Shown one piece after another: positions 3,291 through 53,530 of a DNA stretch of 64,000 bases. The notes beneath the pieces were generated by a model. It was not told the DNA's origin and did no database searches. It was given only the letters and a program-made list of their open reading frames with translations. Position 1 is the first letter of the stretch. Each line of letters opens with the position of its first letter. Source of the DNA: Lineus longissimus (Eukaryota; Nemertea; Pilidiophora; Heteronemertea; Lineidae); assembly GCF_910592395.1 (NCBI RefSeq), contig NC_088319.1:15996001-16060000 (forward strand), written 5' to 3'. The position numbers and the translations under genes were made by a program.

Positions 3291-6200
3291 ATGAGCGAAG
3301 ACGCCACGGGTGTCCGGGCGGAGTCTGATATCAAGATGGTGGCCAGGCAAATCAAAACTGAGTGCAGTCAATTCAAACGAACCTTCCTTCGCCGAAAGCT
3401 GATGACCAGAGATGATCAGAAGGAAGGGGACGAGCTAAATAGGTGCTTAACCGTCGTGGACCTCGTCTCCTTGGGGATTGGGAGTTGCTGTGGTTCAGGC
3501 ATGTACATTGTGACCGGTTTCTTGGCGAAAAGTGTGGCCGGGCCTGCTGTGATTCTCAGTTTCCTATTCGGAGGCTTCGCCTCCATTCTTTCAGGTATGA
3601 AAACCATTTCTTAAAGACCAGGTGCGTTTGTAAACAATTCGATTTTTTTTTAATTTTCAGGTTCTCAGGTACATCCCCGTACCCTGCTGCCCTCTCAGGT
3701 TCTCAGGTACATCCCTGTACCCTGCTTCGCTCTCAGGTTCTCAGGTACATCCCCGTACCCTGCTGCCCTCTCAGGTTCTCAGGTACATCCCCGTACCCTG
3801 CTTCCCTCTCAGGTTCTCAGGTACATCCCCGTACCCTGCTGCCCCCTCAGGTTCTCAGGTACATCCCTGTACCCTGCTGCCCTCTCAGGTTCTCAGGTAC
3901 ATCCCTGTACCCTGCTGCCCTGTCCGACCTGTCCGCCTTCTCCTTACACGTCCCCTTCCACTTGCTCAGTCAATAGACTTGACTGGGTATAATCCAGTGG
4001 TCAATGTGGGATACTAGCTGTTGTACAGGAAGACATAGACCATTGACTACGTTCTTCGCTTTATAGAGGTAGCGTTTGCATATACTAATGCAGCAGAGAT
4101 ACAGCATATGTATAACATTATGGAAGTGACTACTTGGCAAGCCCGGCTTACCAAACAGCGACTTTTTCTTGTCCTGAATGGAGAGCCGAACTCATTAATA
4201 TAACAGTAAAGTCTCCAGCTCGCCAAACAGGGTAGATTTTTTACCTGTTTGGCAAGCCCGGCTGGCCGAACAGGGTGGCTTTTTAGTGCTGTTTGGCAAG
4301 CGGCTCTCCAAACAGGACAAAAAAAGATGCCTGTTCGGCGAGCGGCTTGCCAAATAGACCCGGCCTAACATTATTGAGGGCGGACATCTTCCAGGCCGAG
4401 TGGAATATTGGCCACCCTAAATACTAGAGAAGATGCTCACTGGACTCTTCTTCGTTTTCGCGTTCACCAATGTGTGTTAAGATTCGCAATGCCGTGATTA
4501 GGCGCCATGATTTCATGGCACGGGATTTCCGTCTTCGGCAATTTTGATGTCATTAGATGATAAAGTGATTCTTTGCAGGTTTATGTTATGGCGAATTCGG
4601 CGAGCGCGTGCCGCGAACGTCAGGTTCGTCATACGTCTACAGCTACATCACGATAGGCGAGATTGTAGCCTTCATCACCGGATGGAACCTCATCCTGGAA
4701 TACATCATCGGTACAGCTTCCGGGGCGGTTGCTATTAGCGCATGCGTGGACACCATCAGTCATCACGCCATCAGCGGATACATGACAAACAATAGTTTTC
4801 CTGTCATAGGTAAGTGGAGTTAATTCGACCATTTCCCTGATGCTAAAACATACAACAAGAAAAGAAGCCTCCGGCCTAGGTCAATATCACATTCCCCAGG
4901 CCAACAATATCCATATTGCCCTAGATCCGTTTCCGTCATGCCCCTTAATTCACCATCCCAAACAATAGGATGGGTCATATTTCCAAAATGACAAATTGCA
5001 TGAAGTATTAAAAAAGCTATCAAGGCTATAATCTTTTACTGTCTCAACTCGGGATACGACAATTTTCAACTGACCGATTGTAAACTCAAAAAGTTATGTT
5101 GTCTTTCAGAGCGTGAATACCCAGATGCTCTTGGATTCGGCATAAGTGTACTCATGACAACCCTTCTAGCTGTGGGCGTCAAAGAATCTGTCATCTTCAA
5201 CAATGCCCTAAACGCCATTAGTTTGGCAGTTTGGGTGTTCTTGGTCGGTGCGGGGTGTTTCTATGCACAGCCATCACTTTGGGAGCAGTATGGATTCATG
5301 CCTTATGGATGGTCCGGGGTAAGACTTCTTTTCAGTTACCTCGCACGTTCCACCAAAGTAAATTCGCCACGACTCACCCTGAAGAAAAGCTGTTGGGCCT
5401 CTCCGAAGGATGGTTTGAATCGCATGGAGATCGAGGCTTATCTTCAGATTGTGGGAGTGACCATCAACGACCTCTCGGAGGCGAAAATTGACTTCTCCTC
5501 TCACTTGCAGGTATTCTCCGGCGCTGCTACCTGCTTCTACGCCTTCATCGGCTTCGACATCATAGCCACGACGGGGGAGGAGGCAAAGAACCCAAGCCGC
5601 GCCATCCCTCTCTCCATCTGTCTCAGCCTCGTCATCTGCCTCATCGTCTACGTCTCCAGCTCCACTATCCTCACCATGATGGTACCATTCATGGCCATTC
5701 AACCAAACTCCGCCCTGATAAGCATGTTCGCCCAACGGGGATTTCCACAGGCGCAATACGTTGTCATGGTGGGCGCTTTGGCCGGGCTGACTGTGGCCAT
5801 GCTGGGCTCGAATTTCCCAATGCCTCGTGTGATATACGCAATGGCCAAGGATGGGTTGTTGTTCAAGTAAGGCTCTTTCCATCAATGTTCCTATATGAGT
5901 TTGAACATTTGGATCAGCTTCCCAGATATTTAATGGGGTCAGAAATGTATCAATTGTATCTATAGGTTAGACAGCAAGACGGTCAAAATGTCCTGTCGCA
6001 GAATTTGCATTGACAGACCAGTATACTCTTACACTTAAAGCCATGATCAGTTTTTCCCACTGAGTTCCGACTTAAGCTTTGATGTGAAATTGATATCAAA
6101 TCTGTTGATTTTTGCGGCACGAACGACACGGCTTTTGTTTCATGAAACATGCTTTATCTTCCCTTCATTAGGTTTCTATCGTACGTGAATCCGTGGACCA

Positions 6201-12789: not shown

Positions 12790-15700
12790 TTAGACAGCTG
12801 TTCCGATGGCTTCGTGGCTATGCGATCGTTTCTCCAGGACCAGGGGTTCTTCCTGCATTTCTGGCAAGCCTACAGCCAGGTCACGTTTCACTTTCCGGCC
12901 AAATGCACGTCCCAGGGAACCCTGAAAAGGCAACAGTTAAGCTTCAAGTAACAAAAAACAATGATTCGGTTGGCAACACCCACTGAAAACAATGCAGGAA
13001 TCATTGCTAGCACATGGTTTGTTCAAATCATTTCAACCAGATTACAAATTCTGTGCGGTCTACATACCCTGAAGCTGAGTTTTTTCTTGCCATCATCTTT
13101 CTCACCGGGACCTCTGAACGACCGCTCAAACGACTTGCCAAGGGAACCACTCATGTTTCTGAAACAAAAGACATCAGTTTTAAAGGTCGGCAACATCTTT
13201 GTTGACATCATGACCCAAGCATGATTACAATGTAGAATTCTGCATGTCAGTTGTGCAATTATGTACTACTCCAACAATATGGAATTGGAAGATCCAGTAC
13301 TTCTGTATAATCTATGTTTACAAAGCATCCCGACCATGTCACCTGCAGTTATGAAATATACTTGCACATTGGAATTAGAAATGTATATCTTTTCATTGCG
13401 GTACAAATTCTACTGACTATATCACTTTCCAGCTACACGCTATCTTTTATGCTGCATGGCACCAATGTTTAGCATTTCAGTCTCAGACATACAATGTGAT
13501 CGCATGTCTTCACATTCGAGACCATTGCCTGTGAAAAGCTTATTTTGAACCTTCTCGTAGGATAGAAAGAGGTCAGGAGTCCAAGGTCGTAAGCATTCCC
13601 GGTGTTGAACAGTCCCCAAGCAAGCACTACAGGACTGGGACCAAAGCTGCAGGTCCATCAGGTGAGACGAAAGCAATTTAACTGAGCTATTGAACTGAGT
13701 GTGAATCTTCCTCTCACATCATCCACTAAGCAAATATTCAAGGGGATAAAAGGCAATTCAAGTTTGCAGTTTGACGGACCAAGGTTAGCTGTAGCACTGA
13801 GCTCATTTGAGCAGACCTGCAGAAGCAATGGTTAGGAGCAATTTGAAACAGCGGCTGGAGGGATTTGTGGTGGATGTTTAACAGATACAAAGAAAGCAGA
13901 GCATTGGGAAAATGTTGACCTTTTCTATTTCAAGACACTGGCAGATTTTTAAAGGAGAGCACACCAAAACAGTGTCTGGATAAAACAAAACTTCCAGGTT
14001 AAAAAGTAGTCCAACAAAAAGGTTTCATTGGAAGGATTCACATAATCTTTCATAGTTTACAACACAGAAAACATGCAAGTTCATCTATGATAAATTGCAT
14101 GCAGTCCTAGAGGCACTAGAGCAAGGCGTCTCCAGCAGACAAGGGCAATAATTACTTATTTATCTGACAACAGTAGACGACTTGGAGGACTAAGGCGTTT
14201 TTCTGGCGATTCAGTAAAACACTTTATTTCAACACAGCATAGGCTTCAGTTGGAATCTAATGCTCACCAACGGGAAAACCTTGTTACCTTGCCACAAAAT
14301 ACTGCTTTACTTTTAAGAAATTTCAGTTTAGAATCATGTAGCTGTCTCAAAAGACTGGGATGCCTTAGTCCTAAGTCATGACAAGCCATGCTCATACACT
14401 TTTACCTTTTCTTCGTTTTGACCTTTGCTGCAATTCTAATACAAAAGAAGGGTGATAGTCAATGTAGATGTAGATGTACGATGTGTGCAAGATGGTATTA
14501 TGTATTGTGATTTTTATCAACAAACAAATTTGAACAGCTTGTTGACACCTGAAGAAATACCTTGGCCCGTTTGCTCAATCATACCAGCAGTAACATTGGG
14601 ATAAGTCCTAATCCAACTATCGTACATGAAAAGGCAATCAGGCCTAGTTGAGTACGGCCGGTGTTTCTCTCTTATGCCGATTGAGCATCCGTGACCATTT
14701 CCGCAGCAACAGAGAGATTCCACTGAGATTATCGCAATCACTGAGTCAAACAAGGCTTCCAGTGCATGAAACAGTACTCCAGAATGGAAGTGACATGGCG
14801 CACATAAGCCTCATTCCCAAAAACCTGCCCAAAAAGAAAATGGGAAGAGACAGTTGAGATGAGTGGTGACACCTTTAGTTCAACTAGGAAACTTACCTTG
14901 CTGGTTTTAAAAGTGCTTCCACCTCCGATGTTAGGTGGCGCCGGATGTAGGACTTTGATGGTGGAATGGCGAGGGCCGCTGCCATGGTTTCTCCATTGAA
15001 TGATGGCTCTAGGACTAGTACGCCACCGTGAACACCACTTTCAAGAAGATTGGGAGCATATTCCTGAAAACACCAAAAACTTGATTTTACTGTTTTGTAG
15101 AAGAACACTGAAAATTAACTAGAATCCTACATGATTTGACGCCTTCAGTTCAAATATAATCATTTAGATGAAAGTTGGGTACATTTTGTGCAGCTCTATA
15201 TCTCGAGACGTAACCAGATCTATCATGCATACCTGTAAATCTATGCTGTTCACCCATTGTATTAATCTCTCATTGGTCCAGACTAGCGGGTCGCAGTTGA
15301 ACGCGTCACACTGAGACCGTCGTTGTGATAATGCCTGGAAGAAACATACTAAACATTATAACATCATCAACGCCAATTACTATGCTCCAACTACGATGGG
15401 GGGGTACTGTTATCCAGCCTATGAGACATTCAGAAGTGGAACTCCCAAACTAGTTTTAAAGTTGGTGACATCAAGGCTGTCTCAATGTTTTCATGGCTAT
15501 AAAGCTCACTGAGAAGGACAGGCATATCACAGGAGAACGACAGGCATATCACAGGAACAGTAGGAGTGGTTATTTGGAGGTTCCCTGCATCACCAAGATG
15601 AAAATGACTGCAAGCCACTGCAAACCAATCAAACCTACCTCTCGATTGAAGTTAACTCTCCGTAAAAGTTCCACCCCGTTTAAAATGCTGGCCTGGTGGA

Positions 15701-18700
15701 ACTTTCGCGTAATCTGCATGCACCGTTCCATTTCTTTCTTGGAGAGTGTACTTAGCACCCGCCCGTCGACATGATGGGCCTCGAACGCCGCACTGTATTG
15801 TGGGAGTCCGATATCTCGCATCCAGACTTGTGCGACCCAGACGTGATCGATCGTACCCGCGTCTGGATATCGTCTGAAAGGAAAGTCGGAGAACAAGTCA
15901 AGTCAAAGGCAGAGTATCAATATAAGACAATTATATCCTCAAAACTAACGATTTTTGTAAGTGCTGATCTATGTCAAGTTAGGAAATTCTTCAAAGTTTA
16001 CAGTATAGTTTTAGCTCGGGTATTGACTTACACTTGTGCTGGATCTCTGAGATCATCTATTGCAAGTCGTAACTTCTTCCGATGGAGATAGTTAGTGACG
16101 CCCAATGCCGACTCCAGTTCAGAGTCGCTCATTTCCGATAAAATCTGAAATAGATAAGAAGGATATCTGCAATGAAGGCCAATGAAAGTACAGAAAAGCC
16201 TACTTTTTACATTTTCACCACATCATTTCAGGCATAAAACGTCCCTTCAGGCACAAATCGTCAACTTTCCTAGACTCTACATGCCAAAGCTCAGAAGATT
16301 AGTCTATGACCTACCTTGCCACTTTTGATATTCTCTGCACACTGCCTCCCGTATCGTGGCATGTTCATGACGATCTCCAGCCAGGCTAAGACATGATGTG
16401 CCTTCCACTGGTGGAGAGGGAAGTCCTTGAGCTGATTGACAGCCTGGAGTTTTTCATTATAGTTGTCTTCGTTGAGGGTTGAAACACGCGGTGAGGCACC
16501 TTCATCTAGAGAAGGAACAAAGTAATATATTATTTACAGATTTTATGGAGGTGGCTGGGGGCAGTTGCCCTCCCCCACTAAGCACTGTAGAATACTGTAA
16601 TCTAACATACCTTCCAAACCCATGTGCTCCCCATATAGCACAGATTTTCTTTTACTCGACCGCCCAAATATCCGTGACAACGAACTGAATCCCGTCATCA
16701 TCTTTTTCTTCTTCTTTTGATGTTCGCCGCTACCTGACAAAGTTCCCGCGCAAACGTCCATAACATCTTCGGCTGACCTTGACCTCTCGCCAAGGCCACG
16801 AAGATTTTCTGAACTATGACTGCTGGTGATTCTAGTACTCAGATTCGTTATGACTGAAAAACAAAAAAAATGCTTTCAGAAAAATGTCAGATATTGAGTG
16901 CTTTCTGAATCCAAGTATCCAACACAAATACATCCTCAGAGATTAACCGATGTTTGCAATGATGTAGATTCATGAATTCTACAAGCAGCTCTCAAAATGT
17001 TACGTCACAAGTTCTAAGATAAACGTCGCCAACATAAAGATAAAGACAGAATGAAAGTATTCACCCGTACACATATCACTCTTGACGCTTCGTGCAGACT
17101 GTGGAGGTGACTCGTAATAGGTCGCCATCGTCATTGTGGGTAACTGCTCTTCGCTGGGGGTCTGTACGTCCGTTCCAGATGAGATACCGGTGTCTGACGT
17201 GCTGGCCGTTTTCTGCTTGTGAGCAATGTCTTTTAGTTCTCGGATCTGGGCCCTAGCCTAGAAAGTTGATACATGAATGTTGGTTACCTATTCAACTTAT
17301 GGCCACATAGTGATACTGACTCACAGTTCACAAACTGCACAAACTATTGCCAACTGTGTCTAAAATCAGCTTGCAGCCTAATTCCCTCAACAAATATGGA
17401 CAGGACCACAGTGTTCTTTTCTCATCTAGAAATGTGAATGTTTGGGAAAACACCGGGGAAATAGCTACTTCAAGCATACTCTATATAGTCAAATTTCCTG
17501 GCAGAACGCTACGTGTCAAGTGACTTAGCCAAGACCACAAACCGGCATGTATATACCTCTGCTAATTCATCCTCAAGATGCTGTATCTCTGTATTTTTTT
17601 CATCGACTTCCGATTTTAGAATGACCACTCGTTCCGCGGCGTCCCGTGCCCGTTTAAGCACCTCCCATTTCTCTCGCTCTGCGTCGTCTTTTTCTAACGC
17701 TAACTATAACAGAGGAATCGGCAGGAAAAAAAACGTAAGAACCACAGGAAGTTAACAAAGGATTATCGACATTCGGGTTGCAAGGGTATTGGTAGATCAT
17801 TTGGATGTTTTTAGATGGACACCGTAAATAAATACACCTTCTGCAAATGCACATTTTAGTTTGTTGACACCGGAGAGGAATGTTTAAAGGACAGCAGACG
17901 AGATGCAATGGGGAAAAAAACCATTCAAAACTGTTGGGTTGAAAACAGCGGAAAATAAAACAGCATTGTCTTAATAATAACTCAGTAGGCCTCTTTCATT
18001 TCAAATAACTACATCAAATTTCTCGTACACAAGAGTGTCGCTCAAACTGTATCCGCACATGCGCTCTTACCCAAAGACACACGAGGTCAGTTCAAAGTGA
18101 CCTGCCCGAGGTCACACAGTCACTCACCTGCTTTATACTCTCATCGCTCTCTCGCATCCGAAGCTCGTAATTCCGGATGAACTCACGCAGCTCTCCTTCC
18201 TTTTCTTCGAGGGTCAGATAGAGTTGTTTCATCTGACTCAGGAGGTCGACCTTTTCCGCTTTCAATCGTTTCCGATCCGATTTCATCGCTGGAAATGAAG
18301 ACCAATAAGAAAACATGACATTGTCCTTCTTCAGAAGACAACAAAGTAACCAGGGGTAGATGACTTCCACTGGTTTTAAACAAACCCTAGTTCCCTGGGA
18401 CAAGGACAGGAAGAAGAAGAAGAAGACAGTGTTATTGTTACCTTGTAGTGCTTCCTTCGCCCTGACTAGTTCCTGTTGGTACTGGATAAGTTCCAGCTTC
18501 AGATCGCCCAGACTTGGCTGTTCGTTCAAGATCGCCTTAGTACATTTCAACTCCTTGATCTCCGTCATGAGCTTGTGTATTTGGTGCTCGAGTTTGGAAT
18601 TGTCGTTTTGTAACTTGGAGATTTCTAGCTCGGCCTCACTGAGTCGTCGTCCCTTTGTGTTACCTGAAAGGAGATGTTGAGTTCCTGAATTCTAAAACAA

Positions 18701-21700: not shown

Positions 21701-24700
21701 CAAACAGAGCGACATGCGCCTGGTTTTGCTGTGACAGGTCACAAATGGTTAAAGCACAGGTCCCAGGTCACTGACACTGAAGTCCTTGATGGCCGATTCA
21801 CGACTCCTCTTCACCCGAGCCGTAAAAATAGATCCAGTGACCAGTGGCCATACATAGTCCATTGATTGAATTAATACCAATGATTGGCAGCCTATGTGGT
21901 TATAATTAGATCACATCTAATTTGGGCAGTAATCATACGGTCGGGCGCAAGTGCAGTTCATTTGTATGCATAAGTAATAATTAATGCTAAGACAATCTAC
22001 ATCATCTTGACCACCAAGGACATTGCATAAAGGGAACTTCCAAAAGTACATCGATCCTCAAGTTATTTATTGATAAGAGCTTACATCTTACACGAAAAAG
22101 GCCCACCTTCAGAACAGGCAGGTTTAAAGGAACAACTTCGTGATCTTGAAGCCTTGTCCGTCAAGATCAAGAGCTCATTGCTCAGGGACCTCACTTGCAG
22201 AGAGATATAATACATGAAGCCAAGCTGTATTTCGGTTAATTTAGTGGAGAACTGAACCCCAACCTCATGGTTATGAGCCCGGCCCTGCAACCACTACGAC
22301 ACTGACTGTTGTGATTCTGAAGATCAAATGTATTTTTGGTGGCAATTACATGGTTGAGGTACGAGGCACTGAGCGATCACATCGGTACGTTACAGCGACG
22401 GTGCGAAAACTATTTTACAAGGACTGTGATCATTATCCATAAAATCCATAATAACAGAAGTAGTACCATCAGTAGTGTAGATCAAGGGTTTGTAACAGGT
22501 TGAAAATATCTCACAAAACTGTCCAAACTCCTTCAAAATGAAGGGGGATAGGATAGGAGTCACAGTACAGAGGCAGAAGATGGATTCCTAAACAGGTCAG
22601 CCAACTGTTGAATAAGTGGAACGGTGTAACAGACAACAAAGTGATTATGACATGAAATGTAACTACTTGTTAACATCAACTGGAATAAAAATCATCTAAT
22701 TGCTACTGTATTGATCATTGCATTGGGTACTGTAAGGTCAAAATCTCATGATATAGAAATCACAGAAAAACACAGAGATTGAAACCGACATTGGAAATTT
22801 GTAATAATCCCCGGCCCCCCTGGCACCCCCCTTCACTTTTAAGTCATTAGGTTCAAACAAGTTTCTACCCAAAACCAAACCACCCCCGACAAATTTCTGC
22901 ATCTCCTGGTGAAGACAAGGCTGTTCATTTCAGAGCTTCTAAACGCACACTAGAGGTACCTCGGTAGCCATAAGAGGGGAAAAACAGAAAGCGCATAAAT
23001 ACGCCCACCCAAAACATTGAGGAAATCGGATCCTACCGTCATCGAAAACACAAGAAACGGTTGCCATGATTCTCCCCAGTATCCCACGCTGCCTCTTGAG
23101 CCACTCCTGAGCGCAACTAACCGAGTCCGCCAACTGGAGCAACACACTAATGAGGGTGATACCCCATCGGGATGATCGAACGACTTTACTCAATATTATG
23201 ATCAACTCAATTAACATGTGGTTTCGGGTAATAGCATGTTTGATGTACAGTGCATTCAAAAATTTGTAGACCAAAAACAGATTTATATAGTATCGTTTTG
23301 ATTGAGATGAACAGCTTTCAGTTCCACTTCAAAACTATAGATGGACCTACTAGAAAAGTGATGCTTCCCGAAGACCACAATTAAGTGTTTGCACAAGGGT
23401 GCACTTCTGCTCTACGAGGAGCCACAGCCAAACAAAAATTGACCCCGATTTTGTAACATGCAATCTGATATGCTAAATGTATGCGTTCAGCTGCTCCTTA
23501 GAACACATCACATGCAGCATTTGACGGTGTTTTACACAATTCCCTCCAAAAATAATGAAAATTCATTCTTACCGTGCAAAAGACTTTTCTCAAATTTCTC
23601 TCCAGGGGAAGGAATAGTCGGCTTCCATTCTTCGCCACCATCATCGCAGGAGTAGTAACTTGACCTCTCCAAACTTTCCGATCCTGACTCGGAGAATAAT
23701 AAATCCCGAGATTTCTGTCGAAAGTCGAAACCCGAATCCTGCGTTGTGGCAGGGCTTGGTTCAGCACTGTCACTTACATTGGCGCGGTCTAGAACCTGAC
23801 TGATTTCCACAGACATGGTGACTGGCGCACTTGAATGTCCGTTAAGAAGTTGTTTGGTCCGGCTTTGTAGAATTTCTAAATCACGCGGCGAAATTCCTGA
23901 AGAGTCTGAGTTTTGAGGCGAGGCTTCGCCTGATTCTTCCAAAATGAGTTTCGGGACGAATGTTGATTGTTTTGAGGCATCGTCTTGTTTTGAGTCTGTG
24001 TTATCACAACTGGAACGGGCAGGAACTTCAAGATATGAAAAACTCGAAGCAAGATCACGGGCGGTTTCCTCGACAGAATGGACGGCGATATCAAGAGTTT
24101 CTGCGGCTAGACTTAGAGAATGTCTGGAATGATACTCATCATTTTTTGCAACAGTGCTGTGGCAAATGCAACCACTAACACCCTCCTCATCTGCAACATG
24201 TTCCACTGGAATGACAGTACCATCAAACACATCAACGCCCTCTGTCTCTTCCAGTTCCGGCTCGGCCCCCGCCAAACTTTCATCCGACGTCTCCATGATA
24301 CTCGGCAGACGAGAACCAAGATTCTTCCGTGCCATCTCGTCTTCAGAAAGACACTCACAAAATTCAGCTTCAGGATATCTCTCGGCTTCAAGCAAACACT
24401 CGTTAAAGTCCTTAATCACATCATAATCCGAGTCCCAAATCAGATCTGTAGCATCCTCAACCGACTGTGGTGACGCACTATTTGATTTCTCCACTTGCGC
24501 ACAAACAAGACCATTCTTCATGACCAACTCCGGAATACCTCCCCCATTACGGTTATTGACATCGTTGGTACAGATCTTTGCACTGTTATCCAAAGAAGCC
24601 TCTTTCTGAATTAAGTTTTCATCGAGCTGCACAGGGCCATTTTCAACGAACTCAGACCGGGGTATGCACGCTCCACCTACCCCACTATTGGTGCATTTTT

Positions 24701-25664
24701 GCCCCAAATCGAAATCTTCCTTCCCTCCGTAAGATTTGATATGGCAAGTGCACTGTGCCGAGCACTCACTTAGCCTTTCCCTGTTCCCATTTGACTCAGG
24801 AACTATTATCCCATTTCGTTCATGTGAGTTCACACAGCAAAAATGAAAATCACCTGCAACTTCTGATGCTGAGGTGAGATGCTCCGATTTCGAATCAAAG
24901 TTTGTAATTTTGAGAGATGGAAGCTGTGTATCTGGATCCGATTCCTGATGATCGCCAGACAAGTTCTGATGACCAGGACAACCTGATTCACAACAAGATC
25001 CATCCATATTTATAGCCGCAATATGAGAGTTTTTATTCCTATCAAATTCGTCAAGAGTTTTCAATGATCTCTTATGCAGTGAGAGTAACGGGACAAGTGG
25101 ATCATCACCGCGTTCCGATTTACTCCCAGCCTTCCCAACCATGTGCTCATGAGTTGTATCATCCTCACTGTTAGTCCTGCCGACCCGAGATTGAACTATA
25201 ATCCCAGGATCAGAATCTCTGCAATGATGTATCGAACACTCCCAGTTGTTAGAATGGCAAACATGTTCCATCACTCTTCCCATACACTCCTCAATAATCC
25301 CGCCAATAAACGGTCCGAGTTCACCGACACCATCGGCACCCCTACGATTCACCTGCAGATCCGATTCCCGCTGATCGTTTATTAACATCTCGCCGCCAGA
25401 CACCTGGCTAACCGATATACCATCTGACCTTCTAATTGCAGGCCGATCAGGATTTTCCATAAAACCACCAACCACGTTTTCGATGAACCCAGGGCTCCAG
25501 AGACAGAACCCAAAGTCGTGTAGAATTGCAAACTCCTGATCTTCGATAAAACTACTTTCAGTTTCCTTTCCGCTCAGAACTTCGTTGAAACCATTTTTAA
25601 TGATTTCGCCCTCCATGTTCTGGTACACATGAGAAGACGACAAGGTAGAAGGCTGTTTTACCAT
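12790..25664 (-). CDS. KAZN: Kazrin: coiled-coil scaffold with three SAM domains
   Basis: Cytoplasmic scaffold of the kazrin/liprin group, linked in vertebrates to desmosomes, actin regulation and endosomal traffic. Coding exons, 5' to 3' on the - strand: 25664-23573, 19646-19486, 19070-18887, 18663-18442, 18288-18128, 17703-17557, 17257-17071, 16853-16611, 16505-16315, 16144-16032, 15873-15639, 15334-15233, 15063-14897, 13158-13068, 12921-12790. All have GT/AG junctions and compatible phases: 1475 aa plus stop. Coiled coil about 755-1010, with kazrin hallmarks (DNRQLATRIDG, MKSDRKRLKAEKVDLLSQMK, LREFIRNYE). Basic linker KMMTGFSSLSRIFGR near 1110. SAM1 about 1150-1230; SAM2 (DHVWVAQVWMRDIGLPQYS) about 1240-1310; SAM3 (LVWTNERLIQWVNSIDL) about 1325-1395. 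Vertebrate kazrin is about 775 aa; the excess is the first exon, listed separately. Confidence 0.93.
13068..13158 (-). other. Kazrin exon 14, related to exon 15
   Basis: This 91-nt exon reads NMSGSLGKSFERSFRG..., a basic, glycine-rich tail segment. The last exon (12921-12790) starts with GSLGRAFGRKVKRDLA. The shared GSLG-[KR]-x-F core at nearly the same place in two consecutive exons suggests an exon duplication. The two exons join in phase 0, so including or skipping exon 14 can be tested directly. Skipping it would put the AG left by exon 13 out of register with exon 15. Confidence 0.6.
17170..17425 (-). repeat. Source copy of a kazrin intron-exon segmental duplication
   Basis: This 256-bp block covers the end of the intron before kazrin exon 7, its splice acceptor, and the first ~88 nt of exon 7 (ARAQIRELKDIAHKQKTAST...). 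A near-identical copy lies at 19122-19387. This copy is the functional one: the exon continues in frame into TDVQTPSEEQLP and on to its donor at 17070. Confidence 0.9.
19122..19387 (-). pseudogene. Duplicated partial kazrin exon 7 (pseudo-exon) inside intron 2
   Basis: Copy of 17170-17425 with few substitutions and an ~11-bp insertion, placed between kazrin exon 2 (donor 19485) and exon 3 (starts 19070). It keeps the acceptor (AG at 19211-19210) and the first 29 codons of exon 7 starting at 19209, in the phase left by exon 2. Read on, the frame adds AGNFTS and stops at 19104-19102. It therefore looks like a decayed exon, or an alternative terminal/poison exon giving a kazrin cut off before the coiled coil. 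Confidence 0.8.
19979..20000. repeat. Poly-T tract
   Basis: A run of about 19 T, with flanking T-rich sequence, in kazrin intron 1. It could be the A-tail of an old minus-strand retroposon. A poly-C run of about 16-18 lies at 20715-20732 in the same intron. Confidence 0.7.
21033..21222. repeat. 38-bp minisatellite, five copies, kazrin intron 1
   Basis: Units start at 21033, 21071, 21109, 21147 and 21185 (CACCTTGGAGAACAACCAGG...). The first four are identical and the fifth differs by one base near its end (TACTGG for TATTGG). The lack of divergence points to very recent expansion. Confidence 0.95.
23573..25664 (-). CDS. Giant first coding exon of kazrin, unfamiliar N-terminal extension
   Basis: A single 2092-nt open exon encodes about 697 residues, starting at the ATG at 25664 and ending at donor CACG|GTAAG (23573/23572) in phase 1. 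That phase matches the acceptor at 19646, giving HAIQSLDSLNEQ before the coiled-coil exons. The protein is acidic, serine- and glutamate-rich, with scattered Cys/His (for example SECSAQCTCHIKS, CLLEAERYPEAEFCECLSE). I see no transmembrane segment, repeat or known domain; it is probably mostly disordered. It is absent from the vertebrate kazrin I remember. It could instead end a separate upstream gene's transcript, but it has no stop before its donor and the phases match. Confidence 0.75.
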
Positions 25665-25665
25665 T

Positions 25666-25709
25666 TGACCTTGACCTGCTGTCCTTCTAAGTTTCTACAA
25701 TGACCTTGA
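25666..25709. promoter_or_regulatory. Paired TCAAGGTCA nuclear-receptor sites at the kazrin start
   Basis: TGACCTTGA occurs at 25666-25674 and 25701-25709, with a third at 25830-25838. On the - strand these read TCAAGGTCA, the extended half-site bound by ERR and SF-1 class receptors. The first lies 1 bp upstream of the kazrin ATG. They sit in a locally repetitive stretch, so function is uncertain. Confidence 0.35.
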
Positions 25710-46829: not shown

Positions 46830-47566
46830 GGATGTGAACCAAGGGTGAACCTGGGACAACTCTTCTGACTTCTCCAAGCTGAACTAAGCTAAGACAAGTA
46901 TCGATCCTCTCCAGGGTGAACCTGGGACAACTCCTCCGACTTCTCCAAGCTGAACTAAGCTAAGACAAGTATTGATCCTCTCCAGGGTGAACCTAGGACA
47001 ACTCCTCTGACTTCTCCAAGCTGAACTAAGCTAAGACAAGTATTGGTCCTCTCCAGGGTGAACCTGGGACAACTCTTCGGACTTCTCCAAGCTGAACTAA
47101 GCTAAGACAAGTATTGATCCTCTCCAGGGTGAACCTGGGACAACTCCTCCGACTTCTCCAAGCTGAACTAAGCTAAGACAAGTATTGATCCTCTCCAGGG
47201 TGAACCTGGGACAACTCCTCCGACTTCTCCAAGCTGAACTAAGCTAAGACAAGTATTGGTCCTCTCCAGGGTGAACCTGGGACAACTCTTCGGACTTCTC
47301 CAAGCTGAACTAAGCTAAGACAAGTATTGATCCTCTCCAGGGTGAACCTGGGACAACTCCTCCGACTTCTCCAAGCTGAACTAAGCTAAGACAAGTATTG
47401 ATCCTCTCCAGGGTGAACCTGGGACAACTCCTCCGACTTCTCCAAGCTGAACTAAGCTAAGACAAGTATTGATCCTCTCCAGGGTGAACCTGGGACTCCT
47501 CCGACTTCTCCAAGCTGAACTAAGCTAAGACAAGTATTGATCCTCTCCAGGGTGAACCTGGGACGT
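46830..47566. repeat. 71-bp minisatellite downstream of the pseudo-helicase gene
   Basis: Units begin TCTCCAAGCTGAACTAAGC at 46871, 46942, 47013, 47084, 47155, 47226, 47297, 47368 and 47439 (all 71 bp), then 47507 (68 bp). Degenerate flanks extend the array on both sides. Units at 47013 and 47226 share private variants (TATTGGTCC, CTCTTCGGAC), showing a three-unit, 213-bp higher-order repeat. It lies about 0.5 kb past the gene's stop codon. Confidence 0.95.
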
Positions 47567-48085: not shown

Positions 48086-51000
48086 TCACAGTCCTTTTAG
48101 TTTTTCGGCAGCCTTCACAAGATTTTTCTCGCTTTTCTTCAAAGTCCTTATGGCCTTAATCTCCTGAATAGTCCGGCAGAGCATCATGTGACGGCAGCCA
48201 AGATGCACCATACGTGAAGGAGGTGTTAGCTGTATCACAAGCTCCAACTCTGGTATCGCCAGGTCAACATCTTCAGGGGTCATCACCAAAATCTATAGAA
48301 GAGAAATAGAATCAATAGGGGTTAGCAAAATGTCCTTGTAATTGCAAAAGGATTCCTATAGCAGCTTCAGAATTATACCAGTACACGCATGAAGACTTTT
48401 CTAATACCCTGTTTGACTCCTTTATAATGGTCAGCTCCTTTTTAAAGAAGTGCATAATGTCTAGCCTTAATCACTCCAAACAAAAGTAAGTTCAGTAATG
48501 CAATATTGCCACTGCACACAAACATCTCAAGTGTCTTTATCCCACGAAAATACGTACATACCTGCACAGAGTGCTGGTGTAGTCTCTGCATAAGGCCTTG
48601 ACGATCCTGTCCTGAAACGCATGCAGGCTTCAAGTTCAGCATTCTTAAGAAGTCGGATCTCTCTAACAAATGATTCCAGATTCGTCCCATGATTGGCGAC
48701 TGAACAACAACGGCAACGATCGGATGCTTCCCGCAGAGACGAACAGACCAGTCTACTTCAACAAGTTCCTTGACAACAAGATGGATGGCACTCATATTTG
48801 GTAGCAGCTCATCGATACATTTTCGTGATTTGAATAGCTGAAGCGTATTGAAGTTCTTGATTTGTGCTAACAGTTCTGAGCGGGGCACTACACTCCCAAT
48901 TCTGGTGAACCTGAAGGAACACAATTCCTTGTTTAGCTCATTCAACAAGTGCGCAGCAACCCCAGTGCTGCCGTACAAAAGTCCCAAGAACGAAGTACAA
49001 ATGTGGTGGAAATGCTGAAGAAATGAAATCGTCATTTCATCCAACTTCAAGAGGTCTCGACAAGAGATCGCAACATGAAGGCCATCTTGGATTCGTTCAA
49101 TGGTTCCACTGTCAAACTCTTCAGTAGCTATGCCATCGCTGCATTCCCACTTTTCTGAACCGCCTAACTCAAGTATCAAACGGTGCAGTAACTGGTTGCG
49201 AGATTTCATCAACGTCTTATATAACTCTGTGATGTACAATGATATCTCTGACATGAAATCCGACTCGGCCTCGTTTAACTTCGAATGCCTCAAGAGCAGA
49301 CAGGATCCATCTTTTGAATCAGTCATCTTCTTTAGATGTCGAACATAGATTTCGGCGCCACCAATCTTTTTGAGAACACCATTCAAGATTTTCTCCATGT
49401 CATTGACCTTGTTGTCGTGCATTGTTGGAGTCAAAAACCCAAGGATCTTCGGCCGACCAGGAAGTGCTGGGAATCCATTGCAGGAAAATGCACAGCGTGC
49501 GTCAGGGAGCACGAAAAGGCTGAAGTCGCTCCATTTTAACAAACGCTTATCTAGCATCTGGGGGAAATAATCTGAAACACAATAAGAATCTAGATAAAAT
49601 GTGATCCGACATTGCGAAAAACAGGTGACTAGTGGAAGGCTTGCCCTTTCTAGGTCTATGTGGGGTTGAAGTATAAGAACTAATATCCACAACCGACTTT
49701 GTGTGATGATGGTGAATATAATATATCTCTTAGTCTTCTTTTTGTGGATGATCGTGAATGTCTCTTCAGGGCCAAGCCAACTCTCTCTCTCTCTTTTTTA
49801 CAACCAACCACCCTTGGTAACCAACCATACGTCATCCCCTCTTCCCCAAAATACCCAATCAGGACTTGGCTCTGACCAACATATAATATGGCGTGATACG
49901 ACCAGACGTACTCCTTTTTTAACCCCTGTGGCAAGTTGCCACAAACCAAATTTAGTAATACTCCCTTACTTATTTATAAACTGAATGGTCAAATAGGTCC
50001 ACGGCCTTACACTAGTATCAATAATGACAAGGTGCAAACAGGTCGAGTTGAATTCAATTGTCTGACATTCATTAAGGTATGGTGACTTTCAACACTATCA
50101 GTAACCCAACTTCTGCTCAGACAGTATCGAAGGCAGTCATTTTCTGAAGCACACAAATGTTGCCTGCAGGCATTACCTAAGTATGGCTGACGGACCAGAC
50201 TTACCCGATGTTACAACAATGATATCCAAATAGGCCAGTGAATGATCTTGTGACTCAACCAATTCCTCACAGAAGCAGCCAATCCGAGTCTTCCGCTGCA
50301 TTTTGAAACCACTTCCGCGATCAGTCCTGAAAATAGAGATAAATCACAGTTTGACAGAGGAAACCTACATCCCCATTTGTTCAAGAAAATGATAGGAAAG
50401 GCCACCAACCATGATCAATTAAGTAAAAGTTCCCAAAATAATTTCTAATGATGAACCTTAGCCCTGTCTAAACAGAGTTTCTATGATACAGTAACCTACC
50501 TGATGAGCACATTTTGACCAATCTGAGTCATCAGACTGGAGGAGATTCGCAACATTTCTGATAGCTTCTCAACAAGGACAAGGACTGGTTGACTTGGGTT
50601 CAGATGCAACATGTGGTCGATCACCATGGCAGATACTAGACATTCCTTGGTGCCTGAAGATAAAAGGATTGATGAATGTGACATTCAGGTGTCAGAAGCA
50701 TCACCTTAACCCAATCTTGAAAGACTAGACATGTAGACCATTACACCCAGAAAGAAAGGTTTGGCATACATTATACTCCATTCCATTATACATCTCTTAG
50801 ATCTGAGGAATGGATCAGAGCATGGATAACGTGATAAATGACTGATCTAATGACTACACGCTACAGGCCCTCTATGTTGTATTGCTAAAGCCGAGTTTAT
50901 TTCTTACCTTCAGGCATTACACAGACACTATCATCATGAATGGCAGCCTTGTACATCTCCAATTGGTAGTCTTGGGGTTGTGTCATGGTTCTCGGAAGGT

Positions 51001-53530
51001 GTCTTTCCCCAGATGGTAGACTTGCAGACTTGCCAGATATAGTTTGATTCAGCTCCCTGGTAGTGCCATCACAGTGATTCTGTTTGAGCTTTTCTTTACC
51101 ACATCCTAATTCACCGCTGGCCATTTTCTCTGAAGCTCGGGAAGACTGCCTGATTTGCTTCCGTCTTTCCTTTTCTTTTATTCTTCTAGCCGGTCTCCTT
51201 CGTTTGTCCTTGATGGCTTTCTTTACTTTTGATAAGAGAAGGTGAGGTATAGGAGTCCAGGCCAATTGCCCAGCATGTCGATACTGAAACATAGTTCCCC
51301 TCCTTGCAACACTATTCACCCCTGCAGTTGACTTGTACCTGATCAGCTTGGAAGTAACACGCACTCCAACATCCTTCAAATGCGGACACCATGATTTCAA
51401 TTTCTCGATCAACAGGTCATTTGGCATTTCTGACCGCTTCAGTTTGAGCTGACCCTCCTTACATGTACCAAGAACCGACAGATGATCATCCAAAGAAACC
51501 GAGATCCATTTTCCAACGGCGCCACGATTAAGGTCCTGAGGTTTATGTTTTGAAAATGCAGCAATATTGACAATATGACGTCTGCTACCCTCATGGTTAC
51601 GTTTTTCTACATTACTGGAAAAGTGCTCGTCACAGGAGAAGCAATGAATGAGACAGTTGTCAAGTTCCTCGGGGCATTCACCGAAGTATTTTACAAGGTC
51701 GTTTTCCGCGTCTTGCCCCTTCACGGTTGTGACTGTCATGTCATCAGGGACTTGGATGGTGGACTGCTCATCACCGAAAGTCTTGACACATGAATTCTGA
51801 ACAGGGCCTACCAATGGGTTTAAAGACAATGATCGTAGGTGTTGTTCTTTCTTGTCCATGATTTGAGAGAAAACTTCTTGAGCACTCGTCAGCAATTCTG
51901 CTTTTAGTTTGCAAGGGGGTGAATTGATAGGTAAATTCTGATCATCAGAGCATATCCCGGTGATGGTGGACACTGAACATGTATCAAAATCCTGTGCATC
52001 GGAGTCAAAACTGTCCTCCAAAGTCAAGTTTAAATTGTCTAATACAGGGCGAACTTCTGCAGTTGTTGATTGAGAACAAGTGCTAAAAGAACCTTGCAAT
52101 TCTGATTTCAGCTCATCACAAGTGTGGCGATCTTGAGTGTACAGGCTCATATCAGCTTTTCTGTTCAAGCCCAATTCTTCCATCCTCGGACGGATCTCAG
52201 CAGTTGTGGACTGAGAAAGTGTGTCGGTATTATCCAGGGCCATCTCCCCCATCACTGGACAGATCTCTGCAGTGGTCGATTGAGAAAGTGTGTCGATATT
52301 ATCCAGGGCCATCTCCCCCATCACTGGACAGATCTCTGCAGTGGTCGATTGAGAAAGTGTGTCGATATTATCCAGGGCCATCTCCCCCATCACTGGACAG
52401 ATCTCTGCAGTGGTCGATTGAGAAAGTGCGTCTGTATTATCCAGGGCCATCTCCCCCATCACTGGACAGATCTCTGCAGTGGTGGATTGAGAAAGTGTGT
52501 CGATATTATCCAGGGCCATCTCCCCCATCACTGGACAGATCTCTGCAGTGGTGGATTGAGAAAGTGTGTCGATATTATCCAGGGCCATCTCCCCCATCAC
52601 TGGACAGATCTCTGCAGTGGTCGATTGAGAAAGTGTGTCTGTATTATCCAGGGCCATCTCCCCCATCACTGGACAGATCTCTGCAGTGGTCGATTGAGAA
52701 AGTGTGTCTGTATTATCCAGGGCCATCTCCCCCATCACTGGACAGATCTCTGCAGTGGTCGATTGAGAAAGTGTGTCGGTATTATCCAGGGCCATATCCC
52801 CCATCACTGGACAGATCTCTGCAGTGGTCGATTGAGAAAGTGTGTCGGTATTATCCAGGGCCATATCCCCCATCACTGGACAGATCTCTGCAGTGGTGGA
52901 TTGAGAATGTGTGTTGGTATTATCCAGGGCTCTCTCCCTCATCTCTGGACAGATCTCTGCAGTGGTCAATTGAGAAAGTGTGTCAAAATTATCCGAAACC
53001 ACTTCCTCTTTTACCGGACAGTTTTCAGCAGTCAACGATTGAGAACGTACATCTAACTGTTTCTTTGTTAAATTCTTCCGTTTGGTAATCCTCTCATTAT
53101 CTTTATCTCGACACATTTTCAAACATCGTTTTCCTCGTTCTGAGGGCAAACGTCGTGTATTCTCACCACAAGCTGCTGTCATTCTACTAAAAGTCTGATT
53201 TAACCGGTGATGACCGCGTGGGAAAGCAAACACGGAACTATGAGGCTGCAACTTTTGCCCCGAATTTCGAGAGGCCACTCTTTCCTCCTTTTTTAACAAA
53301 TCTAACTGTTCAGAGAGCGTCAGCCTTGGACGTTTGAACGGTACATCTTCTTGATTTGGCCAACTACCCATGTGTACTTGAGGTTGTGGATATCGCCCAC
53401 GGAACAACCAAGAAGACCTCTCACTCTCAGCAAGCTGTCTACAATTTCTCTCTTGCCAAGATGAGGCACCAGGGCGACCAAGGAGAGATTCATTTCTTCT
53501 TTGCTCCATTCTGTCTGTCAGCCTCGTCAT
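48086..53530 (-). CDS. Dicer/RIG-I-like pseudo-helicase with U1-type zinc finger and 23-aa repeats
   Basis: Coding exons on the - strand: 53530-50908, 50653-50500, 50326-50205, 49571-48562, 48292-48086. Splice phases match and give 1371 aa. A 5'UTR acceptor sits at 53547, and an in-frame TAG just before the ATG fixes the start. N-terminus: basic, about 1-162. Then 23-residue repeats 163-440 with decayed copies to about 530, a C-x2-C-x12-H-x5-H finger near 626-650, and a Lys/Arg-rich region about 760-790. The rest follows a Dicer/RLR SF2 helicase order: QDYQLEMYKAA (Q-motif-like), CVMPEGTKE for the P-loop, LFVLPDAR for DExH, KILGFLTPT for motif III, a long insert, then ILVMTPEDVDLAIPELELVIQL for motif V. 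Catalytic residues are lost and no PAZ, RNase III or dsRBD follows. Homology is remote; an inactive RNA-binding scaffold is inference. Confidence 0.75.
50908..53530 (-). other. Giant exon 1 of the pseudo-helicase gene (repeats and zinc finger)
   Basis: A single 2623-nt exon covers residues 1-874. It ends inside the degenerate P-loop (GAAG|GTAAG at 50908/50907, phase 1); the next exon supplies GTKECLV. The C2H2 finger is encoded around 51590-51655, with spacing typical of U1/JAZ/matrin-type RNA-binding fingers. C-terminal to it is a globular-looking region (GKWISVSLDDHLSVL, WCPHLKDVGVRVTSKLI) that I do not recognise. Only the helicase part has a recognisable fold family. Confidence 0.7.
52197..53045 (-). 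repeat. Coding 69-bp minisatellite (23-residue units)
   Basis: Twelve full units of 69 bp (core STTAEICPVMGEMALDN, then TDTLSQ), of which ten are almost identical, plus decayed units on the C-terminal side (TTAEIRPRMEE, TTAEVRPVLDN, ITGICSDDQN). Variation is mostly N[TI]D[TA]L and G[DE]M. The period is a multiple of three, so expansion keeps frame. Because no stop arises in other frames, long antisense frames appear at 52124-53056 and 52204-53088; these are artefacts. Confidence 0.95.

Follow-up and report, generated by a model that had tools for sequence, protein, structure and literature searches.

A zinc-finger helicase of the Dicer/RIG-I/FANCM clade and its putative catalytically dead paralog in the ribbon worm Lineus longissimus

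The DNA analysed here, referred to as the window, is a stretch of 64,000 nucleotides from the genome of the ribbon worm Lineus longissimus (contig NC_088319.1, positions 15,996,001 to 16,060,000). It contains on its minus strand, at 48086-53530, the gene LOC135497117, whose product of 1371 amino acids (aa) we call P0001. When spliced from the window sequence, the gene has five exons, four GT-AG introns and an open frame of 1371 codons. A search of a protein collection returned the NCBI entry "uncharacterized protein LOC135497117 [Lineus longissimus]", also 1371 aa long. Because this protein is identical to the spliced P0001, the exon model has been reached independently. An earlier note on this DNA, made from its letters alone, had described a complete gene joined from five exons to 1371 aa, and the exon borders, the open frame and the identical NCBI protein all confirm this. 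It had also regarded the frame as intact and the gene as not being a pseudogene, which agrees with our analysis: the introns are kept, and neither stops nor frameshifts were found. Exon 4 has no stop in 336 codons, compared with 8-25 stops in each of the five other frames, and at its base composition the probability of its being open by chance is ∼4e-9. When 901 bases of exon 4 were compared with the worm's own genome, the single match was exon 4 itself.

The C-terminal ∼525 aa of P0001 (residues ∼849-1371) make up a diverged superfamily 2 (SF2) helicase module. Both helicase lobes that the earlier note had traced are supported by homology at the sequence level, and all the motif pieces that it quoted were located in the protein. 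Using hmmsearch with a combined profile of Dicer and RIG-I-like receptors (RLRs), the spliced protein scored 21.1 bits, while the maximum for shuffled sequences was 7.9 (n = 5000). Dicer-only profiles gave weaker scores (14.2 and 11.5 bits versus shuffle maxima of 10.3 and 7.3), and hhalign gave 93%, with 0 of 300 shuffles equally good. The resemblance of the spliced protein to Dicer is above chance, and P0001 is a very divergent relative of the Dicer helicase clade. A scan of the 1253 individual open segments of the window with three Dicer/RLR profiles placed no exon frame of P0001 among the best eight matches per profile, all of which had E-values of 0.4 or worse; therefore the helicase signal needs the spliced frame. 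For the C-terminal part of P0001, Pfam gave DEAD (E 0.011) and an arenavirus cap-snatching model (E 0.23), both below threshold, and the best NCBIfam match in P0001, Hef at residues 849-901, was likewise sub-threshold (E 0.048). A phmmer search of PDB with the helicase part returned no match at E≤10, and an Rfam scan returned no family. In a model of the module predicted by AlphaFold2 (AF2) with Dicer sequences in the alignment, most of RecA1 was placed at a predicted local distance difference test score (pLDDT) of 50-73, and the top PDB match of this model was mammalian Dicer (E 1.9e-4).

The nearest relative that we found is a second gene of the same genome, L035, on the plus strand of contig C8 (C8:5624555-5629822; L035:56-5323). 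It is an open five-exon gene for eight C2H2 zinc fingers followed by a Dicer/RIG-I/FANCM-clade helicase with complete motifs I-VI (PTGTGKT, DEVHH, TAS, QIRGRAR), which matches RIG-I with E 1.3e-27 and ancestral Dicer with 3.5e-33. Residues 843-1371 of P0001 are 28.4% identical to L035 (E 3e-51), and in the alignment P0001 has three gaps of ∼10 residues. The four introns have the phases 1, 2, 1 and 0 in both genes. For introns 1, 3 and 4, the first of which interrupts motif I, the alignment columns of the two genes coincide. Intron 2 is displaced by 3 columns owing to a 3-residue gap next to it, and it falls into line once the gap is closed. Both genes place C2H2 fingers ahead of the helicase, one in P0001 and eight in L035. 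A search of the genome with P0001 gave 35 matches, of which five were P0001 itself, one was the L035 gene (E 1.7e-10) and 29 fell within residues 88-482, in the repeat region described below; L035 is the sole non-self match of the helicase region, and the family has at least two members in this genome. In a tree of nine sequences, P0001 and L035 were sisters with a support of 1.000, and the branch of P0001 was three times longer than that of L035 (1.68 versus 0.56), while the place of the pair relative to FANCM and the RLRs had a support of 0.295. From the alignment, the introns, the genome search and the tree we infer that an ancestral zinc-finger helicase gene was duplicated and that the active site of one copy was lost. 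As judged from these sequence comparisons, P0001 and L035 are almost certainly paralogs of which P0001 has lost the catalytic motifs. Besides the complete motifs, the eight fingers and the shorter branch, L035 differs from P0001 in that the 23-aa repeat array was not noticed in it. Over 489 codons of the two genes the proportions of nonsynonymous (pN) and synonymous (pS) differences were 0.505 and 0.825, pS being saturated; over the first 80 codons they were 0.353 and 0.73. We know of no family name for an architecture of C2H2 fingers and a Dicer/RIG-I-clade helicase, and a full-text literature search for it returned no paper. A survey of lophotrochozoan RLRs does not contain the words zinc finger, znf or c2h2 (PMC8998645).

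Motifs I, II, III and VI of SF2 helicases carry the residues that bind and hydrolyse ATP. P0001 has neither GxGKT in motif I nor DExH/D in motif II, in motif III LTPT stands in register with TASP of L035, and the arginines of motif VI (QxxGRxxR) are absent (Table 1). The earlier note had stated that the P-loop Thr and both acidic residues of DExH were lost. The Thr is indeed replaced by Cys and the first acid is gone, but the second is a Glu-to-Asp change, since P-D-A-R is in register. Its claim that the arginines of motif VI are lost in register needs a similar correction: both are absent, but the motif is not merely mutated, as the whole stretch falls in a gap of ∼9-11 residues. In order to compare losses inside and outside the catalytic core, we used the 62 columns in which L035 agrees with at least five of seven clade members. 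P0001 keeps 1 of the 17 conserved columns in motifs I, II, III and VI compared with 20 of the 45 other columns (Fisher p 0.003), and when motif VI is excluded the core still keeps 1 of 11 (p 0.03). Such a concentration of losses in the core fits a pseudoenzyme better than uniform decay.

Table 1. Coordinates (window positions) of the exons and features of the P0001 gene
Feature	Position	Strand	Basis
Exon 1: residues 1-874 plus one base; N-terminal part, 23-aa repeats, zinc finger, basic stretch, helicase start up to motif I	50908..53530	-	GT donor, phase 1; identical NCBI protein
69-bp tandem array, 11.7 copies, 95% matches; in-frame 23-aa repeat of type SQSTTAEICPVMGEMALDNTDTL	52180..52984	-	Tandem Repeats Finder (TRF)
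C2H2 zinc finger CFSCDEHFSSNVEKRNHEGSRRH, residues 630-652, C-x2-C-x12-H-x5-H	51575..51643	-	Region 608-652 41% identical to last-finger region of L035, E 1e-8
Exon 2: RecA1 start, best conserved segment LVSAMVIDHMLHLNPSQPVLVLVEK; 154 bp, as in L035	50500..50653	-	tblastn, 55% identity to L035 over 47 aa
Former motif I, second part (first part at 50908-50914): PEG/TKEC versus PTG/TGKT of L035, slash marking the intron; P-loop Lys to Glu, Thr to Cys	50640..50653	-	Intron in same alignment column and phase in L035
Exon 3: end phases 2 and 1, as in L035	50205..50326	-	Splicing and L035 alignment
Exon 4: remaining RecA1, stretch in HEL2i position, RecA2 start	48562..49571	-	Domain names by homology
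Former motif II: PDAR versus DEVH (L035) and DECH (Dicer)	49495..49506	-	L035 alignment
Exon 5, including stop: RecA2 end; motif V altered, motif VI missing	48086..48292	-	L035 alignment
Former motif V: TPEDVDLAI versus TSVAEEGLD in L035, at least one residue missing	48254..48280	-	L035 alignment
Site of motif VI: ∼9-11 residues missing between L1334 and G1335; QIRGRAR in L035	48197..48202	-	Alignments to L035

Ahead of the helicase, the 23-aa repeat of P0001 runs from about residue 157 in 14 repeat-like units, of which the final one is at 489. The 69-bp array that codes for most of it has probably expanded recently, since its copies match at 95%. The repeat unit ends in TLSQST, which we take to be reminiscent of dynein-light-chain binding motifs. 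On the whole of P0001 Pfam reported HMBD only, and this call, placed on the repeat, is probably due to the letters CPxM. Stretches that resemble the repeat region at ∼25% identity, with E-values down to 3e-18, were also found elsewhere in the genome (L046-L049, L051-L052 (C3:1033160-1034615), and L045 (C2:21123139-21123783)); these matches perhaps reflect merely a common composition. A second tandem array (71 bp, 10.2 copies, 96%) lies just downstream of the gene at 46842-47564. The C2H2 finger, which ties P0001 to its family, was overlooked in the earlier note; Pfam zf-C2H2_jaz has no match in P0001 and a match below the cut-off in L035. A basic stretch at residues 782-792 lies upstream of the helicase module. 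Elsewhere in the window are coding pieces for an amino-acid permease (5004-5867, plus strand; Pfam 1.6e-16) and a SAM domain (15573-15902, minus strand; Pfam 2e-14). A 720-aa open frame at 23535-25694 (minus strand) has no convincing Pfam match, its best being SYNE1 at E 0.0095, below the cut-off.

We also compared P0001 with the known members of the clade. The assignment "Dicer/RIG-I-type" in the earlier note holds at the level of the Dicer/RIG-I/FANCM clade, but not for Dicer as the immediate family, since the nearest relative found is L035 and the worm has a separate Dicer. The latter (L030, C3:28014000-28023990, minus strand) is complete-looking, with pieces that match residues 48-1915 of vertebrate Dicer; its ATPase site is apparently intact (GTGTGKT, DECH), and it is a different gene from that of P0001, with other helicase introns. 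Its DECH differs from the altered DECH boxes of DICER1 in many molluscs and annelids, given as DDCH, ENCH, DHCQ and ECSN in PMC11114477. P0001 resembles the HEL1-HEL2i-HEL2 helicase of Dicer in its profile similarity across the module, and Dicer is also the best match by fold when the model is guided by Dicer sequences. Unlike Dicer, it has destroyed motifs and is without PAZ, RNase III or dsRBD, as the earlier note had recognized; Pfam gave no match for PAZ or tandem RNase III in P0001, and the gene ends after the helicase, as L035 does. Three full-length vertebrate Dicers searched against the window gave nothing better than E 1. RIG-I, MDA5, LGP2 and C. elegans DRH-1 belong to the same helicase clade. 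In contrast to the RLRs, P0001 has a zinc finger and destroyed ATPase motifs, and Pfam finds in it neither CARDs nor the RIG-I C-terminal RNA-binding domain; P0001 ends 55 residues past the motif V position. The genome has five loci on contig C6 (L031-L034 and L037) that match RIG-I and MDA5 helicases, three of them near C6:2.6 and 6.55 Mb. Drosophila Dcr-1 (GHRSSKEF and EDCHD; PDB chain 8dfv) and the lophotrochozoan DICER1 with altered DECH boxes have, like P0001, lost canonical motifs, and they are clade members that have stayed in use. Both are full Dicers, whereas P0001 is a zinc-finger protein whose C-terminal part forms the dead module, and it lacks motif VI. P0001 also differs from FANCM and Hef: no nuclease part was found in it, and a FANCM-like piece exists separately in the genome of the worm (L038, so named by sequence reading).

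Of 7992 candidates scored in the protein collection, only P0001 itself matched its residues 620-1371 at E≤1, and exon 4 matched none of 1568 candidates at E≤10, P0001 itself being outside the length range. These negatives are weak: candidates had to pass a filter on five-letter words, and P0001 (620-1371) shares 3 of 748 such words with L035, exon 4 none. Because the two have so few words in common, the filter can miss even a paralog at 28% identity. The protein cluster of P0001 has no member other than the NCBI model, and the literature searched does not mention LOC135497117.

We believe, with a probability of roughly 0.6, that P0001, a paralog of a Dicer/RIG-I/FANCM-clade helicase with zinc fingers, is catalytically dead and that its fold has been kept as an ATP-independent regulator. 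As a clamp or scaffold, the fold would bind either duplex RNA or a partner protein. Additional binding to nucleic acids would come from the zinc finger and the basic linker, and multivalent contacts from the repeat array. P0001 would then regulate or compete with L035, or with the Dicer or RIG-I-like helicases of the worm. Such an ATP-independent binder or scaffold, acting on L035 or another clade member, is suggested by precedents in the clade, where other members that hydrolyse ATP weakly or not at all act structurally in a similar way. According to PMC10328071, a review, and PMC9645528, the helicase of mammalian Dicer has lost its ATPase function and gained an ATP-independent structural role, and its HEL2i binds TARBP2, a duplex-RNA-binding protein; LGP2 is described as an inhibitor of Dicer-dependent processing in mammalian cells (PMC5813259). 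We regard the odds that P0001 has a regulatory role as about even.

Several observations weigh against this proposal. The precedent itself is qualified by a paper whose title credits the helicase domain of human Dicer with the ability to hydrolyse ATP (PMC11658451). The match of the AF2 model to Dicer has a TM-score of 0.21 and a root-mean-square deviation of 28 Å across the whole module, and it is partly circular, since the model was built on Dicer sequences. Without relatives, AF2 gave a pLDDT of 34 and no usable fold, and the top Foldseek matches were unrelated (E 0.06 and worse). The contrast between core and other columns weakens to 8 of 34 versus 13 of 28 (p 0.05) when all motifs from Q to VI are counted; the columns were assigned to motifs after the alignment had been seen, the core set being chosen for the part of its residues in ATP binding and hydrolysis, and 6 of the 16 core-column losses stem from one deletion, that of motif VI. 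Finally, the excess of pS over pN is divergence common to the branches of P0001 and L035, and is not specific to selection on P0001.

The main alternative is that the gene is on its way out, having lost its function and evolving fast, with a frame that is open by youth or luck. The threefold branch, the single finger where L035 has eight, the three gaps and the tandem array all suit such decay, as do the lack of relatives in the weak protein-collection searches and the solitary cluster. Against it stand the four intact introns, 523 stop-free helicase codons at ∼28% identity to L035, the slight chance that exon 4 would be open by accident, the clustering of losses in the core catalytic motifs and the little-changed segment adjoining the P-loop. 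We consider decay possible but the less probable outcome. That P0001 is a non-canonical yet active nucleoside triphosphatase is very unlikely. Lys877 lies one residue ahead of the P-loop Lys position and Asp990 preserves one acid of motif II, so that these two could replace the lost residues; however, the second Gly, the Lys and the Thr of the P-loop are lost in register, with no gap relative to L035, and motif VI is absent together with both its arginines. The alignments of the earlier note would suggest a helicase-only remnant of Dicer itself, a descent contradicted by the introns and the finger of L035 and, in our judgement, barely tenable. Least probable of all is an artefact of the gene model that joined exons from separate transcripts. 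No single exon frame stood out in the helicase-profile scan, as such an artefact would have it, but the NCBI model is identical and each junction is found again in L035 in the same phase.

A more specific form of the regulatory proposal, which we put forward as a long shot, would make P0001 and L035 a two-part unit for sensing or processing duplex RNA that is specific to ribbon worms or to a wider group of spiralians. L035, as the active helicase, would move on RNA, and P0001, with its repeats for multivalent assembly, would be the non-hydrolysing subunit. This would be akin to the arrangement of LGP2 or of Dicer with its partner, in animals for which a published survey (PMC11114477) reports siRNA-type Argonautes but no Dicer-2; the same survey reports no endo-siRNA signature in Notospermus.

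A dead helicase and its motif-complete, intron-matched sister in one genome offer a natural before-and-after pair for the change from enzyme to non-enzyme. The pair makes it possible to ask which parts of a Dicer/RIG-I-type module persist once ATP hydrolysis has been abandoned. Because Nemertea are reported to be without Dicer-2, and one of them without an endo-siRNA signature, unusual nemertean members of this helicase clade bear on how these animals handle duplex RNA.

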